From: Anaerolineales bacterium
GTDB taxonomy: Bacteria > Chloroflexota > Anaerolineae > Anaerolineales > Villigracilaceae
Length of the DNA stretch: 64,000 nt
Direction of reading: 5' to 3'
NCBI GenBank assembly: GCA_030583905.1
Contig: CP129481.1
Location: 1,488,001-1,552,000, forward strand
The notes below the pieces were generated by a model that was not told the DNA's origin, did no database searches, and saw only the letters and a list, made by a program, of their open reading frames with translations. The number at the start of each line of letters is the position of its first letter. Position 1 is the stretch's first letter. The translations under genes and the position numbers were made by a program. Of this stretch, positions 45,740 to 53,348 are shown one piece after another.

Positions 45740-48055
45740 TCATCCTTTTCGCATCTGGTCGTATAGTTGGCGATAATCTTCCACATTGGGCGGGCTCATC
45801 AGGATGATCTGGTTGATGACCTCCATTGCGCCATGTTTGTCACCGTTTTGGAAGAGGGTATCGCCCAGTTCATCGAGTACGCGGACGGCTTGTGCTGTGC
45901 GGTTGGCTCGGTGAAGCTGCGCCGCGAAGGTGCGCTTGAGCAAAGGCTGGTCGCCATGGTCGTTGACCAGTTCCTCGAGGAAGGCAAGCGCCGGTTCATT
46001 CTTGTTCTGGCTTTCCAGGTGGTTGATGTAATTTTCAAGTTCGTTGATGGCTTTGTCCGGCTGCGCCATGCGCAAGTTGAGTTCGATGATCTGTTTTCGC
46101 ACGGCATCGTCGTCCGGCGAAAGGGTGCGGATCTGTTCGAAGACGCGCAGAGCTTGTTTCCAATCCAGCCGCTGCATGTCGATATCCGCCATGCGTTGCA
46201 GGATATGTACATTCCAATCGCGGCTGGCGTTGCCTTGCTGGACAAGCCGCAGGGCGGTGGTAAAGGTCTTGCGCGCCATGTCCAGTTCGGCGAGGCGGTA
46301 ATAGATGGCTGCAAGTTCAAGGTATTCGCGGACAGCATCGTCGGTTTGACCGCGCGCCACGAATTGTTCGATCAAGCGTTTGCGCGCGCTCATATCCATG
46401 GGCGAGATCTGGATGATGCGACGCAGAAGTTTTGTCGCTTGCAGCGCTTCGCCGCGAGCGCTATAGGCTTGCGCCACCACGCCGAACTTTGTAATGGCGT
46501 CGTTCGGGCGCCCTTCCTGAACGAGCAGGTCGCCCATGAGCGTGTGGAGCGGTAGGTAGGTGGGGGCGTATTGAAGTGCGTCATACGCCTCGTCCATGGC
46601 GGAGCGCAAACTGCCCGTACGCGCCAATTGGTTGATATGGTTCATCGATTCGAGCACCGAACTGGATTGGGCTTGCAGGATGACCTCTGCGAGCGGGGCA
46701 GGCAGATCGCCCTCCTGTTTTGGCATTTGTTCGCGAGTTTTGTGGAGTTGCTCCCGCCAGTCGGGACGCATCAGGAGTCCGTGGATGTTCTGACAGATTT
46801 TGCGGATCGCCTCTTCATCCGTTTGGTTTTGATACGCCTCGATCAGCGGTTCATATTGCTGACGGATGTCGTCGGCAATTTCGGCAGGGACGGTCATGGC
46901 ATCGGCGGATTTCAACGCTTCCAGATATTCCAAAGCCGCTTCATGGTGGAGCGATTTTCGTTCGAGCATTTGTCCCAACAGAAGACGGGTTGGAAGCGCG
47001 TAGTCGTTATGCTTGACGGAGTTTTGCAGGAAGCGCTGGGCGGTTTCGAAACGCTCGCCTTTAAAACGTAAAAGTCCGAGCGTGAAATACAAGGCTGGAT
47101 GTTTGAAACCTGCTTCGAGTGCGCCTTCCATTTCCTCCGCAGCCTGCGATTCATTGCCTTTGGACTGCGCATCAATTGCCTGACCGAGATGCAGGACGAC
47201 CTTGGTCTGTTCGGCGTGCTGCATGGAGAGACCGCCTGTGCCTTTCACAATGGCGGATAGACCGCGGCGTTCCTGTGCGGCTGGGCTGTCGTCGGAATAT
47301 TCGAAGAGTAACTCCGCCAGCTGGGTCAATGCCTTCTGGCGCGCCTCAGCAACCGGGTCCAGCCCGGAGGAGGCGCGCGAAGCAAGCGGTTTTTGTAATT
47401 CCTTGACCTGCGCCATGCGGATGGGACCTGTCCCGCCTTTCCCGCGCACGGGTCTTGGAAGCAGTTGTCCCGTTTTGAGAAGCGTCTGCGCCTGTTTCAC
47501 TTCGGGACTGTCGGGCAGAAGGGATTGGGCTTTATTTACCATCTCCAGCGTTTTTTCCATGTTGCCTGCGCGTTGGATGATGCTGGCAATGGCGAGATAC
47601 TCCATCACTGCCTGTTGTTTATGCCCCAGTTTTTCGTGGACTTGCGCAAGACGCGAATGGGCGATTGCGTTTTCAGGGTTGATGTTGGTGACGCGCACCC
47701 AGTTTTCCAGCGCCTTTTCGGTATCGCGTTGTTTGAGAAAGAGATCCCCTGCGCGGATCGCCGCATCCACGGCGGCTTTTAAGTCGCCGGTCCGCTCGGA
47801 AAGTTGTGCCACTTTTTCCATCGACACTGGGTCGTCGGGCGTGATCTTGGAGACGCGCGTATAGATCTGCAATGCCTCTTCGACATTGTTAAGTTGATAG
47901 AGCGCAAGCCCCAGGCTGTTTAGCGCCTTGGGATGATCGGGAAACTCCTCCAGCGCGCGGCGGTAGGCATTGGCTGCCTTGCCCCACTCCTGGTCCCAGG
48001 CGGCGGAGTGCCCATCGTTCATTGCTTTTTGAAATACGTCGTCTCGTTCGGGCAT
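45740..48055 (-). CDS. large tetratricopeptide-repeat protein
   Basis: 771 residues, TPR arrays throughout. Clear units include AANAYRRALEEFPDHPKALNSLGLALYQL, ALENWVRVTNINPENAIAHSRLA-type, and LHTLMGDLLVQEGRPNDAITKFG. A less regular, Gly/Pro/Lys-rich stretch (about 195-240) divides two arrays. No signal peptide or membrane helix, so it is a cytosolic scaffold of unknown partners. It lies between ctaA and polA on the same strand but has its own terminator. Confidence 0.85.
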   Translation of the reverse strand: MPERDDVFQKAMNDGHSAAWDQEWGKAANAYRRALEEFPDHPKALNSLGLALYQLNNVEEALQIYTRVSKITPDDPVSMEKVAQLSERTGDLKAAVDAAIRAGDLFLKQRDTEKALENWVRVTNINPENAIAHSRLAQVHEKLGHKQQAVMEYLAIASIIQRAGNMEKTLEMVNKAQSLLPDSPEVKQAQTLLKTGQLLPRPVRGKGGTGPIRMAQVKELQKPLASRASSGLDPVAEARQKALTQLAELLFEYSDDSPAAQERRGLSAIVKGTGGLSMQHAEQTKVVLHLGQAIDAQSKGNESQAAEEMEGALEAGFKHPALYFTLGLLRFKGERFETAQRFLQNSVKHNDYALPTRLLLGQMLERKSLHHEAALEYLEALKSADAMTVPAEIADDIRQQYEPLIEAYQNQTDEEAIRKICQNIHGLLMRPDWREQLHKTREQMPKQEGDLPAPLAEVILQAQSSSVLESMNHINQLARTGSLRSAMDEAYDALQYAPTYLPLHTLMGDLLVQEGRPNDAITKFGVVAQAYSARGEALQATKLLRRIIQISPMDMSARKRLIEQFVARGQTDDAVREYLELAAIYYRLAELDMARKTFTTALRLVQQGNASRDWNVHILQRMADIDMQRLDWKQALRVFEQIRTLSPDDDAVRKQIIELNLRMAQPDKAINELENYINHLESQNKNEPALAFLEELVNDHGDQPLLKRTFAAQLHRANRTAQAVRVLDELGDTLFQNGDKHGAMEVINQIILMSPPNVEDYRQLYDQMRKG

Positions 48056-48100: not shown

Positions 48101-50905
48101 TTATGTAATTATAACCTTCATCTCGCCCCAGTTCACACCGGCTCTTGCTTCCGTTTCCAAGGGGATGCTCATTGGGTAGGCGTTTGACATTGTTCCCTGC
48201 ACGACCTGCGCAGTCTTTTCCATTTCCTTTTCGGGGCATTCCAGCACGAGTTCATCATGGACTTGCAGAAGCATTTTCCCTGTCAACCCCGCAGATTGGA
48301 GCGCGGACGGGATGCGGATCATTGCGATCTTCATGATGTCAGCCGCCGTGCCTTGGATCGGTGCGTTGATGGCTTCGCGCTCCTCGCGGTTCTTCATCTG
48401 GACATTGGTCTTGGTCTGCAATGCCGGGAAATATCTTCTACGCCCGAGCAGGGTTTCGACGTAACCGATCTCGGCAGCCTGGCGGCGGATGCCGTCCAGA
48501 TAGTTTTTTATGCCGGGGAATTTCCTGAAATAGGCTTTGACGAAATCCTCCGCCTCTGCCAGCGTCAACTCGGTGGTGCGGGTGAGTCCAAATGCCGACA
48601 TGCCGTAGATCAACCCGAAGTTGATGGCTTTGGCGTGGCGGCGCATATCCTTGGTGACCTTGTCCAATTCGATATCGTAGATGGCGGCGGCGGTCGTGGC
48701 GTGGATGTCCTCTCCCGCGCGGAAGGCAGTCAGCATGGCTTCGTCCTGCGCCATGTGCGCGACGATGCGCAGCTCGATCTGCGAATAATCCACCGAGAGC
48801 AGAACGTTTCCCTTGTCCGCGATAAACCCGTTGCGGACTCTCCGTCCTGTTTCGGTGCGGATGGGGATGTTCTGCAAGTTCGGGTTATTGGACGAGAGGC
48901 GTCCCGTCACCGCGCCGATCTGGCTGTAGGAGGTGTGCACGCGCCCTGTATTTGGGTTGATCGCGGCGGGAAGCGCATCCACATAAGTGGATTTTAATTT
49001 GGAGAGTTCGCGGTGTTCAAGGATGAAATCCAACACGGGATGTTTTCCGCGCAATGCCTCCAGCACGTCCGCCGAGGTGGAGTAAAAGCCTGTCGTCGTT
49101 TTGCGCCCTTTGTCGGGTGGTTCGAGGCGCAGGTGGTTGAATAGCACATCCGAGAGTTGCTGCGGCGAATTAATATTGAATGTCTTTCCGACGTGACCGA
49201 ATATCTCCTTTTCGATTTCCGCGAGACGGCTTGCCAGATCCTTTGACATTTTGCCAAAGAAATCGGTATCCACCAGCGCGCCGGTCATTTCCATTTCGGC
49301 GAGCACGGCGCTGAGCGGCATGTCAATCTCGTCAAGAATGTTCCTGCCGTTCACACGTTCCAGTTCTCGCTCCATGATCGGCATCAGTCGCAGGGTGGTT
49401 TCGGCATCGGCAGCGGCGTAGTTCGCGGCAGTCTCAATTGCAACGTCTGCCATGCTGATCTGCTTTTTTCCCTTGCCGATCAGTTCTTCGATGTGGGTCA
49501 TTTCTTCATCGAGCTTTGCGGCGGCGAGATTCTTCAGCCCCATATTGCGCGAGGACGGGTCTGCGATGAACTCTGCCAGCATGGTGTCGAACGTCAGCGG
49601 GGATGTGACGAGTCCATGCCGCGCGAGGAGGATGTAATCATATTTTGCATTGTGCGCGAGCTTGCCGATCTTCGGGTTCGTCATGGATGGCATCAGCGCT
49701 GCGATGACCATTTCCAGCGAAAGGTTGTTCCCCGATGTATGACCGATGGGAATGTAATAGCCGGTCCCTTCTTGTACGGAAAGCGATATGCCGACCATAT
49801 CCGCGCGCATTTCGTCCGTGTCGGTGGTTTCTGTGTCGAACGAAATGACCTTGGCTTTGGAAAGTTCTTTGACAAGGTCTCTCAACTTCGCTTCCGTATC
49901 CACGATGACGACTTCGATGTTCGAAGGCTTGATCTCCGTCACAACCTGCGGCTCGTTGACGAACATCGTCATCTGCCCGCTTTTGGTTTTGGCAGTCTTC
50001 GGCGCGGACGTTAATGTGGTTTCTGCCACGCCTCCGCTGATGGCAGGGACTTTGCTGATCAGCGTGCGGAATTCCATTTCCTTGAAAAACGCCTCGAGTT
50101 TTGTGCCGTCGAATGGCGTGACTTTCGCGTGTTCGAGGTCGAATTTCATGGTCAAATTCGTTTCGATCCGCGCGAGGTCGCGGCTCATGTACGCCATTTC
50201 CTTGCTGGATTCAAGTTTCCCCTGCCAACGTTTTTCCACCTGGTCGAGATTCGCATAGACATTGTCCAGCGTCTCGAATTTTTCGAGCAGGGAGATGGCG
50301 GTTTTTTCACCCACACCCTTCACGCCGGGGATGTTATCGGATGTATCGCCGACGATGGCTTTGTAATCCACTACTTGACTCGGACGCACGCCCAATTTTT
50401 TGACCACATCCGCATCGGTGATGTAGGTTTGGTCATCGCCTGCGAGATAGACCGCCGTGCGCTCGTTGACCAGCTGCAGCAGGTCTCGGTCGCCGGTGAT
50501 GATCTTTACGCCCAGTCCTTGCCCGGCGGCGAGACGCGCCACCGTGCCAAGCACATCGTCCGCTTCGTAGCCATCCATTTCGAGGCGCGGGATATTGAAC
50601 AGATCCACCATCTCGCGGATGCGTTCGATCTGCGGACGCAGGTCATCGGGCATTTTCTCGCGCGTGGCTTTGTATTCAGGGAAGATATCATCGCGGAAGG
50701 TTTTTCCAACGTCGAAGGCTACGGCGAGGTATTCGGGCTTTTCCTGCTCCAGCACGCGGATCAGTTCGCGCGCAAAACCGTAGATGCCTGCCGTCGGTTC
50801 ACCTTTGGAGTTCACCCAGCGCTGCGAACTTCCACCCGCGGTCAGGGCGAAGTACATGCGGTAGGCAAGTGCGTGTCCGTCGATCAAGTAGAGAGTTGGG
50901 GGCAT
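48101..50905 (-). CDS. polA: DNA polymerase I
   Basis: 934 residues, full three-domain enzyme for repair and Okazaki fragment processing. The 5' nuclease domain (1-290) has YLIDGHALAYR, DVGKTFRD, EADDVLGT and TGDRDLLQL. The 3'-5' exonuclease is apparently active: SFDTETTD near residue 354 keeps its Asp and Glu. Family A polymerase motifs are VDYSQIELRIVAHM (about 703), RHAKAINFGLIYGMSAFGL and QVHDELVLECPE (about 880). AAGGA precedes ATG. It lies downstream of a terminator. Confidence 0.97.
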   Translation of the reverse strand: MPPTLYLIDGHALAYRMYFALTAGGSSQRWVNSKGEPTAGIYGFARELIRVLEQEKPEYLAVAFDVGKTFRDDIFPEYKATREKMPDDLRPQIERIREMVDLFNIPRLEMDGYEADDVLGTVARLAAGQGLGVKIITGDRDLLQLVNERTAVYLAGDDQTYITDADVVKKLGVRPSQVVDYKAIVGDTSDNIPGVKGVGEKTAISLLEKFETLDNVYANLDQVEKRWQGKLESSKEMAYMSRDLARIETNLTMKFDLEHAKVTPFDGTKLEAFFKEMEFRTLISKVPAISGGVAETTLTSAPKTAKTKSGQMTMFVNEPQVVTEIKPSNIEVVIVDTEAKLRDLVKELSKAKVISFDTETTDTDEMRADMVGISLSVQEGTGYYIPIGHTSGNNLSLEMVIAALMPSMTNPKIGKLAHNAKYDYILLARHGLVTSPLTFDTMLAEFIADPSSRNMGLKNLAAAKLDEEMTHIEELIGKGKKQISMADVAIETAANYAAADAETTLRLMPIMERELERVNGRNILDEIDMPLSAVLAEMEMTGALVDTDFFGKMSKDLASRLAEIEKEIFGHVGKTFNINSPQQLSDVLFNHLRLEPPDKGRKTTTGFYSTSADVLEALRGKHPVLDFILEHRELSKLKSTYVDALPAAINPNTGRVHTSYSQIGAVTGRLSSNNPNLQNIPIRTETGRRVRNGFIADKGNVLLSVDYSQIELRIVAHMAQDEAMLTAFRAGEDIHATTAAAIYDIELDKVTKDMRRHAKAINFGLIYGMSAFGLTRTTELTLAEAEDFVKAYFRKFPGIKNYLDGIRRQAAEIGYVETLLGRRRYFPALQTKTNVQMKNREEREAINAPIQGTAADIMKIAMIRIPSALQSAGLTGKMLLQVHDELVLECPEKEMEKTAQVVQGTMSNAYPMSIPLETEARAGVNWGEMKVIIT

Positions 50906-50923: not shown

Positions 50924-50954
50924 AAAACGCAGAGTTTATTATACTCTGCGTTTT
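50924..50954. terminator. bidirectional-type terminator upstream of polA
   Basis: 12-bp perfect stem AAAACGCAGAGT (50924-50935) with ACTCTGCGTTTT (50943-50954), 7-base loop. On minus it ends the transcript of the 532-residue fusion gene. Confidence 0.85.
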
Positions 50955-50991: not shown

Positions 50992-52590
50992 CTACGAATC
51001 TTCCTGTCCCTGCCGCTGGCGCGTCTGGCGGATGTAATCTTTCACCAATTGCGCAGGGTGCGGCTGTGTTCCGCCCATGATGAGATAACCGGGCGCCCAA
51101 AAATCGCCGGATGGATTTTCCTTCTTCAAACGCGGAAATTCACTAAAAATCTTCTCGGACGTTTGCTGTCGCATGATGCGCATCAGGTAACCGGGCGATG
51201 TATTCGGCTGGACGTTCACAACCCACTGCAAATATTCGGGGCGCACAGCCAAAAATTCGAGCCGCCAGCCGAAGGCAATGCAGATATTCGGCAGCCATTC
51301 ACCCATATGATCCGCAAGATCGCCGGTGATGTAATGCGATGAAAAGCGCGGCACGAGCAGGCACGCATAAGTCAGGTGATACAGCCCCGCCGTGATCGGC
51401 TCCACCACCAGTTTCTTTGCCGCCTCGGTGGTCGGACTTTCACGGGTGACGTCCGCTTCGCCGGGCTGCGGGACGGCAACGGGCGTACTGGGTCTCGGTT
51501 TCGAGCGGGACGGGGCGGTCACTTCCACATCATCGAACGTGGTCTGGGTTTCCACGCCTCGTTCCTGACTTTGAGATTGCTGCGTCACCTCGATGTTTTG
51601 CCTGCGCTGGGGCGGATTCGCATCCCGGTTGAAGACGGATGCGTTCGACAGAGATTCCGCGACACGCGTCTGATTGGGATCGAAATCCTCCTTTTGGCGC
51701 GGCACGCTGAAGATGTGTGTGGAGGGGGGTTCGGGCGTGGGGGCGGGAATGTCCGTAAGAATGTTCGAGATCGAGGGGATGTTGATGTCTTCCTCCTCGT
51801 TCATCGCATCGGATAAAACCTGCGCGGGACGATGGTCTGTGTGCTCGCTGCCGAGATCGTTCACAAGCTGGCTCGCCTGGGAGCGGATCGTGCTAAAGGG
51901 AGTCTCAGCATCGAAAACAAGAGCAAGCACGGTGTCGGAGGTGAGGCGGGTGGCGTACAGCATATGCTCCGCTTTTGTGCTTTCCAGTCGAATGAAACGC
52001 AGGAGATCGGAGCCTTTCTGCCCGTCCCAATTCCGTGTAACAGCTTGCGCAACTTCCTTCGCGGCGTTTTGCGAGAGACCGCCCGCGTATGCCCACAGGT
52101 CGCTTTTGCGGGTGATCAGCGCAGCTTGCGCGGACGATTCCAACGTGAGACGGGTGAGGTGCTGGGCGGCTTTGCTCACATCGCTTAACCACGGAATGGT
52201 GGTGTGCTGCGTGATGGGCACTGCCGGGGAGGGGGATGGTTGGGGTTTGCTGATTGCGTTCATAAATTCTGCCAATCTAAACGGCTTGCGGACAAGGATC
52301 CACGGGCGCAAGTCATCGAATGCGGGCGGATCGCCTTCTTCATCGCACAGGATGATCAGGTTGATGCCCTGCCGGACGGTGCGTAACGCGTTGCCGATTT
52401 CGTTCACCCAGTCTTCGCCAAGCGCAGCATCAAGCATGGCAAGCGGGGCGCCAACTTCGTCCGCTCGTACCACAGCGGATGCCTTGTTGTTGACAACGTG
52501 CGCCCGATAGAGGGATGATTCCTCCAATTTACGATGGACGGTTTCTCCAAAGCTGGAGTTGGGAGTGACGATCAGGATGTCCGCTGGCAT
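50992..52590 (-). CDS. receiver / roadblock-like / degenerate IS200-type (Y1) transposase fusion
   Basis: 532 residues, three parts. 1-112: receiver-like, with Asp54 (AMLDAAL) and Lys102 (VRKPF). About 133-248: a roadblock/LC7-like domain (AALITRKSDLWAYAGGLS, MLYATRLTSDTVLALVFD). About 250-395: a disordered Pro/Ser/Gln linker. About 402-525: an IS200/IS605 TnpA (Y1_Tnp) fold, GLYHLTYACLLVPRF, GWRLEFLAVRPEYLQW, SEKIFSEFPRLKKE, DFWAPGYLIMGG, VKDYI. The HUH motif is lost (Tyr453-Leu-Gln455) but the tyrosine equivalent to the nucleophile is kept (Tyr519). It is probably a domesticated DNA/RNA hairpin-binding module controlled by signalling; function unknown. No flanking IS ends are seen. Confidence 0.75.
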   Translation of the reverse strand: MPADILIVTPNSSFGETVHRKLEESSLYRAHVVNNKASAVVRADEVGAPLAMLDAALGEDWVNEIGNALRTVRQGINLIILCDEEGDPPAFDDLRPWILVRKPFRLAEFMNAISKPQPSPSPAVPITQHTTIPWLSDVSKAAQHLTRLTLESSAQAALITRKSDLWAYAGGLSQNAAKEVAQAVTRNWDGQKGSDLLRFIRLESTKAEHMLYATRLTSDTVLALVFDAETPFSTIRSQASQLVNDLGSEHTDHRPAQVLSDAMNEEEDINIPSISNILTDIPAPTPEPPSTHIFSVPRQKEDFDPNQTRVAESLSNASVFNRDANPPQRRQNIEVTQQSQSQERGVETQTTFDDVEVTAPSRSKPRPSTPVAVPQPGEADVTRESPTTEAAKKLVVEPITAGLYHLTYACLLVPRFSSHYITGDLADHMGEWLPNICIAFGWRLEFLAVRPEYLQWVVNVQPNTSPGYLMRIMRQQTSEKIFSEFPRLKKENPSGDFWAPGYLIMGGTQPHPAQLVKDYIRQTRQRQGQEDS

Positions 52591-52671: not shown

Positions 52672-53262
52672 TCATGTGCCTGCCAAAAAACCTTGTTGAC
52701 CGCCTTCATTGTACTCTGTTTGCAGCTCTTTAATGCCTAACAGCGCCATCAGCACTTCCGGCGGGATGTCGGCTTCAGGCAGGTCTGTTTTGTAGGCTTG
52801 CTCCTGTTCGGCGCGTTCGCGCAGGCTTTTCCAAAGCAGATTACGCTCTTCGCCTTCCACAACGAGATCGTTCAGCGTTTTCGCATTGAGCAGGCACTCG
52901 CCCGTGGAATACAGGAACGTCAGCCGTCTCCACTTATCCGTTTTGACGGGCTCCTTGAGTTTCTCCAGTGCGCCGATCTGGATCTTGTAATATTCCTCGT
53001 TTGCGCGCGGATGATGCGGCTCGTCCTTGAGCAATTCGGCGCGGGTGGTGAGTTCGTGTCCCTTGACCTCGGCGATGAATTCGATCTGTCCGCTTCGCTC
53101 TCCGAAGGAGGCTGGCTGGTAGAACGCGAGATAATCCACGGCGACAACTTTCGGCGCCGTACGAAGCGGGATGCGATACCAGCCGAGCAGGCGCGCAATT
53201 TCCAGATCCCGTGGAGTGGGGAGCAGGCAGACGAGGACGAGGGAAGACGGGGAAAGCGTCAT
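52672..53262 (-). CDS. protein of unknown function, 196 residues
   Basis: I do not recognise the family. Strands and charged positions resemble a small restriction-endonuclease-like fold (VVAVDYLAFYQP, GQIEFIAEVKGHELTTR, RRLTFLYSTGECLLNA): Asp in VDYLAF, then E-x-K in AEVKG could be a D...ExK site, which is speculation. The C-terminus is helical and acidic. No signal or membrane segment. It stands between the transposase-fold fusion gene and the PLP enzyme, same strand, separated by a palindromic repeat from the latter. Confidence 0.6.
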   Translation of the reverse strand: MTLSPSSLVLVCLLPTPRDLEIARLLGWYRIPLRTAPKVVAVDYLAFYQPASFGERSGQIEFIAEVKGHELTTRAELLKDEPHHPRANEEYYKIQIGALEKLKEPVKTDKWRRLTFLYSTGECLLNAKTLNDLVVEGEERNLLWKSLRERAEQEQAYKTDLPEADIPPEVLMALLGIKELQTEYNEGGQQGFLAGT

Positions 53263-53272
53263 GTGAAGAAAT

Positions 53273-53321
53273 AGAAAGTGGAAAGTGACGAGTTGATTCT
53301 ACTCTTTACTTTCCACTTTCT
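53273..53321. repeat. AGAAAGTGGAAAGT palindromic repeat
   Basis: 14-bp perfect arms AGAAAGTGGAAAGT (53273-53286) and ACTTTCCACTTTCT (53308-53321) with a 21-base loop, between the 196-residue gene and the PLP gene. Confidence 0.8.
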
Positions 53322-53348
53322 ACAAACGAATTTCGACCGGTTTGCAAA

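Follow-up and report, generated by a model that had tools for sequence, protein, structure and literature searches.

Gene X lies on the reverse strand of a 64-kb window of an Anaerolineales bacterium (assembly GCA_030583905.1, contig CP129481.1, positions 1,488,001-1,552,000), the window being the whole stretch of DNA analysed here. The open reading frame (50992..52590, in coordinates of the window) codes for a protein of 532 residues in which a receiver-like domain, a roadblock/LC7-like domain and a linker are followed by a TnpA (Y1_Tnp) domain of the IS200/IS605 transposases, predicted from its sequence to be catalytically dead. Gene X is followed downstream, 86 nucleotides on and in the same orientation, by polA (48101..50905), which codes for a DNA polymerase I (Pol I) of 934 residues with 5'-3' exonuclease, 3'-5' exonuclease and polymerase domains recognised by Pfam. 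Between the two genes stands a conserved hairpin (50924..50954, reverse strand). The linkage of gene X to polA, unnoticed in the preliminary description of this DNA, is a new finding, and it tells more about the function of the gene than do palindromes across the genome.

The predicted three-fold architecture (receiver, roadblock-like and TnpA), proposed in the preliminary description, is well supported by sequence profiles, by an AlphaFold2 model built on an alignment of 57 relatives and by Foldseek comparisons of that model. Values of the predicted local distance difference test lie at about 90-98 in the greater part of the three folded regions, and are mostly below 50 in the linker (residues 249-394; 51409..51846, reverse strand), which is acidic (net charge -10), predicted to be disordered and poorly conserved. 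The TnpA domain (residues 403-528; 51007..51384, reverse strand) is matched by Pfam Y1_Tnp over residues 404-522 (E 3.1e-13), as are all 57 relatives, and the top matches of the protein in a sequence search of the PDB are IS200-type transposases. The fold itself, expected earlier from the letters alone, is found in the predicted structure, in which the C-terminal region resembles the transposase 2fyx (TMt, a Foldseek structural-match score, 0.83) and also matches complexes of the ISDra2 and IS608 enzymes. Within the family, it is the TnpA domain that is the most conserved (82% identity), ahead of the roadblock (78%), with the receiver at 53% and the linker at 40%. When a remote relative that belongs to a different family of the class was modelled on its own, the assignments were similar (2fyx, TMt 0.71; MglB, TMt 0.67).

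The middle region (residues 132-248; 51847..52197, reverse strand) has the fold of MglB (TMt 0.69) and also matches Rag-type GTPases and their complexes. By sequence, the region misses the Pfam Robl_LC7 cut-off, and because Robl_LC7 was found once among the 57 relatives, weakly (0.0013), the roadblock assignment is based on structure. The receiver-like domain (residues 1-116; 52243..52590, reverse strand) is recognised through Response_reg matches in 28 of the 57 relatives (best 1.6e-13) and through the likeness of its model to Spo0F (TMt 0.81). The residues to which attention had been drawn before, Asp54 (52429-52431, reverse strand) and Lys102 (52285-52287, reverse strand), are indeed conserved, in 88 and 83, respectively, of the 90 aligned relatives, and a KPF motif is present. 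The acidic pair that serves Mg2+ binding and phosphorylation is gone, its place being taken in gene X by Thr9-Pro10 (Thr in 78 and Pro in 63 of the 90 relatives). Moreover, the proteins of genus g24 (L050 and L051; 419-429 residues) consist of roadblock and TnpA only. Thus, the receiver fold implied by the earlier suggestion of a transposase fold under signalling control is there, while the degenerate pocket and the loss of the domain in a whole genus weaken the suggestion of control. The degenerate receiver probably serves as an interaction module, or as a switch that does not depend on phosphorylation.

Cutting chemistry and host domestication

Comparison with ordinary TnpA proteins bears out the reading that the histidine-hydrophobic-histidine motif (H-x-H) has been replaced by Tyr453-Leu-Gln455 (51226..51234, reverse strand) and that Tyr519 (51034..51036, reverse strand) aligns with the nucleophile. 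H-x-H occurs in none of the 90 aligned relatives, 80 of which have Y-x-Q instead. In a wider set drawn from the class it is absent from all 58 fused domains and present in 20 of 21 comparison TnpA-type domains of the phylum, the lone exception (L253) being a degenerate stand-alone copy. Remnants with one histidine, on either side (H-x-Q and Y-x-H), are found among the relatives and fit a stepwise decay from an active ancestor. In IS608, a glutamine four residues past the nucleophilic tyrosine (Q131) is a metal ligand (PMC5934647). This third ligand is gone as well: gene X has Thr523, and glutamine is found in 3 of the 90 relatives versus 16 of the 21 comparison TnpAs. The nucleophile position is Tyr in 76 and Phe in 14 of the 90 relatives; Phe prevails at both deeper levels, in 13 of 16 relatives from the order and 11 of 14 from the class. 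Since the deep branches mostly carry Phe, Tyr519 appears not to be needed as a nucleophile and its presence in gene X to be specific to the lineage. That the TnpA domain is catalytically dead is, on this comparison of sequences, well supported.

The protein could be taken for an active or recently inserted IS200/IS605 transposase, or for an artefact of assembly that joined a transposase to another gene. It does pass the NCBIfam IS200/IS605 transposase model (5.9e-15, 55.6 bits), by 0.6 bits over a cut-off of 55, and the equivalog model is also matched by 57 of 57 relatives; because the cut-off is passed, automated annotation may misname the family 'IS200/IS605 family transposase'. We consider an active enzyme or an artefact extremely improbable, as H-x-H is lost in all relatives, no repeats resembling the ends of an insertion sequence (IS) were found in the flanks of gene X, and each genome has one full-length copy, at a conserved place, in dozens of independent assemblies. 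An IS relic is rejected on the same grounds, that is, no H-x-H, a single copy, no IS-end-like repeats and a fixed site.

Full-length orthologues occur once per genome, in almost all of the searched genomes of the genus and family and in a large part of the order. A scan of GTDB genomes gave 65 loci, with titles of Anaerolineales, Anaerolineae or other Chloroflexota, and of 248 genomes of the class searched with a roadblock-domain profile, 79 gave relatives, matches being almost restricted to the class. In a tree of TnpA domains, which is based on a short alignment and has many weak inner forks, a branch with support of 100/99 separates ordinary transposases from the fused domains, and the latter track taxonomy. 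The computations show that the fused TnpA domain has one origin and has been inherited vertically under purifying conservation. That gene X is domesticated by its host is well supported, and the view that the host took over a transposase fold is upheld; relatives with an intact H-x-H motif and flanking IS ends were not found.

Linkage to polA and the junction hairpin

Among 102 relative loci long enough for polA to be seen, counting some genomes twice because two collections overlap, the gene lies on the same strand and at most 1.5 kb downstream of gene X in 89. The order is kept in order-level relatives at 25-54% protein identity, often with gaps of 0-20 nucleotides, and adjacency to polA recurs in families f22, f24, f20, f134 and f137. 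Receiver-roadblock proteins without a TnpA domain also adjoin polA (L142, L143, L146, L184, L190 and L195), which indicates that the pairing of receiver-roadblock and polA is independent of the fusion.

The gap between gene X and polA holds the hairpin AAAACGCAGAGTATAATAAACTCTGCGTTTT, followed by a T-run (ATTTTT) and with TATAAT in its loop; as single-stranded DNA it folds with -12.6 kcal/mol (z -6.6). In a sample of 83 distinct loci, which took in some order- and class-level ones, 50 have a CGCAGAG...CTCTGCG hairpin just 3' of gene X, and variants are recognisable in several more. Over 30 distinct sequences the 7-bp core is near-invariant and the outer pairs covary (21 double-changed cells, 0 of 500 shuffles). 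The sequence reads as a terminator of gene X overlapping the TATAAT (-10) box of polA, and no known RNA family was detected in the region at the gathering threshold. A terminator alone needs no invariant stem, and a sequence-specific reader of the junction hairpin is therefore likely. The hairpin is a candidate ligand of gene X.

Possibly, a dimer of the dead TnpA domain binds this hairpin, whether extruded from DNA or formed in RNA, and would thereby control both termination of gene X and initiation at polA. The conserved position, core and covariation speak for such a role, as does the fact that the palindrome is unique in this genome, its one copy lying at the junction (its half-site CGCAGAGTATAAT has 1 exact match). 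TnpAs are, moreover, known to recognise hairpins carrying unpaired bases (PMC8266576). We nevertheless find such a control unlikely: the hairpin also resembles an ordinary intrinsic terminator over the polA -10 box, one locus (L018) retains TATAAT despite a broken stem, and the genomes of relatives contain, at other places, CGCAGAG hairpins that are similar but differ in the loop. In addition, the junction hairpin is missing from order- and class-level relatives, and so cannot explain the older association of gene X with polA.

Two other origins of the hairpin were considered and rejected. It is not what remains of the right end of an IS, since it is absent in deeper relatives, where gene X abuts polA; and it does not belong to a multicopy family of repetitive extragenic palindromes (REP) in this genome, which has one copy. 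The genome had been called rich in short palindromes, but the 64-kb window is mildly enriched only (9 hairpins versus a mean of about 2.4 in shuffled sequences). Separately, palindromic inserts resembling REPs or miniature inverted-repeat transposable elements (CGTCATTGCGAGGAGGGC...GCAATGACG) were seen in the X-polA gap of four loci (L065, L067, L083 and L084).

Further genes flank the pair. Downstream of polA lies a gene for a tetratricopeptide-repeat (TPR) protein of 771 residues (45740..48055, reverse strand; Pfam), syntenic in the family. Upstream of gene X, a gene for a protein of 196 residues (52672-53262) is conserved in the genus and matches no Pfam family, and upstream of it is an inverted repeat of 25 nucleotides (53272-53322; arms 88% complementary, 1 nucleotide apart).

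Possible roles of the transposase-derived domain

The evidence on nucleic-acid binding by the dead TnpA domain is mixed. Among the basic positions common to ordinary TnpAs, the domain retains 415 and 474 and has lost 417, 418 and 479; positions 489 and 490 persist only close to the gene X family. The family itself has gained near-invariant Arg or Lys residues at positions 443, 450, 480, 487, 524 and 526. The net charge of the domain averages +4.7 among ordinary TnpAs, about +3 within the gene X family, +1 in the order and about -7 in the f24 group. The fold had been described as hairpin-binding, a label that the data do not sustain, as part only of the basic residues of TnpA survives and one branch of the class is strongly acidic.

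These substitutions raise the alternative that the TnpA fold is used for protein-protein dimerisation or docking only, gene X then being a scaffold, perhaps with an MglA- or Rag-like GTPase, in which nucleic acid has no part. Small GTPases often have roadblock domains as scaffolds, and in structure the middle domain is closest to MglB and Rag-type complexes. The loss of residues 417, 418 and 479 and the acidic branch also agree with a scaffold. However, the new Arg and Lys residues of the gene X family are near-invariant and its domain stays at about +3; gene X is linked to polA, and the stand-alone copies to a nuclease of the Mrr type; and no GTPase gene was noticed beside these genes, though no search was aimed at GTPases. 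We regard a pure scaffold as a possible though rather doubtful explanation.

The stand-alone copies, 19 in number and all lacking at least part of the catalytic set, group in one clade (100/100) that is nested among the fused domains of the gene X family, and so arose by copying of the tail of gene X. A gene for an Mrr-type restriction endonuclease (Mrr_cat, 1.7e-11) adjoins the stand-alone copy in 12 of the 17 loci examined (L149, L151-L156, L158, L159, L162, L164 and L166), most of which also have a TPR protein and a GAF/PAS histidine kinase. Of 61 relatives, 13 have the Mrr gene (E <1e-50), and in 11 it stands next to a stand-alone copy. The Mrr-linked copies are a second reuse of the dead domain, in a second DNA-linked context, and the cassette is possibly a DNA-responsive or defence-like unit; defence-system models matched neither gene X nor the stand-alone domain. 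One stand-alone copy (L165:3641-4216) has H-x-H with Phe at the nucleophile position, and on account of this Phe it should not cut either; its neighbours include genes of the MotA/ExbB and MotB/OmpA types.

Taken together, we propose, with moderate confidence, that gene X is a domesticated, non-cutting TnpA module within a dimeric adaptor or regulator tied to Pol I. An IS200/IS605 TnpA domain would have lost its cutting chemistry and been retained in a receiver-roadblock protein, of which it is the most conserved part. Roadblock and TnpA are both known dimer folds, and the protein may well dimerise through them. The dead TnpA domain would then offer a surface for nucleic acid of a particular structure, or one on which a partner docks, and the protein may help to recruit, localise or regulate Pol I. 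A role with Pol I is what we infer best from the lasting linkage of the genes. A more specific version, which we hold to be improbable, makes gene X a class-wide accessory factor of Pol I: the dead TnpA domain would sense single strands that have folded, as in hairpins at forks, at flaps or at the junction with polA, and the roadblock and receiver-like domains would relay this, steering or restraining the polymerase.

Several observations weigh against a tie to Pol I or against the part that the TnpA domain is given in it. Many class-level genomes and loci show no polA near the relative of gene X, and adjacency alone proves neither contact nor a common pathway. The TnpA domain is not essential to the link, which lineages without the domain keep. 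The lost basic residues and the acidic f24 branch argue against nucleic-acid binding as a universal property. Finally, in the gene X family the terminator-like hairpin and TATAAT box separate gene X from polA, which may have its own transcription.

Relation to known systems

To our knowledge, the known domesticated relatives of IS200 transposases retain the cutting site. In gene X, cutting appears to be lost and the fold to be under strong selection across the depth of a bacterial class, beside the gene for DNA polymerase I. An enzyme of selfish DNA thus appears to have been turned into a fixed, non-cutting component of the host, and gene X offers a testable case of a transposase that joined the machinery of replication and repair or came to regulate it. 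Neither a receiver-roadblock-TnpA fusion nor a dead Y1_Tnp domain tied to polA is reported in the open-access literature searched.

Each part of the protein has a counterpart among described systems. With Spo0F receivers and with pseudo-receivers the N-terminal domain shares the fold, Asp54, Lys102 and the KPF motif, but its Mg2+-binding acidic pair is mostly Thr-Pro. The middle domain has the same fold as the MglB-type roadblock/LC7 proteins, but is set between receiver-like and TnpA domains and falls below the cut-off by sequence. TldR proteins are transposon-derived transcription factors related to TnpB and dead as nucleases; they derive from another transposon protein and act by another mechanism, being guided by RNA, whereas no RNA guide is known for gene X. 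The TnpA-REP proteins, or REP-associated tyrosine transposases, resemble gene X in being TnpA relatives that are kept by the host in single copy and inherited vertically. Those described retain H-x-H and the tyrosine and process REP hairpins (PMC8266576), whereas in gene X the chemistry appears to be lost, the protein has several domains and the palindrome next to the gene occurs once in this genome. With the IS200/IS605 TnpA proteins themselves (IS608 and ISDra2; PF01797), gene X shares the fold and the sequence family, and Tyr519 aligns with their nucleophile; it differs from them in having no H-x-H motif and no third metal ligand, in the fusion to two domains of signalling type, and in being immobile, single-copy and linked to polA.
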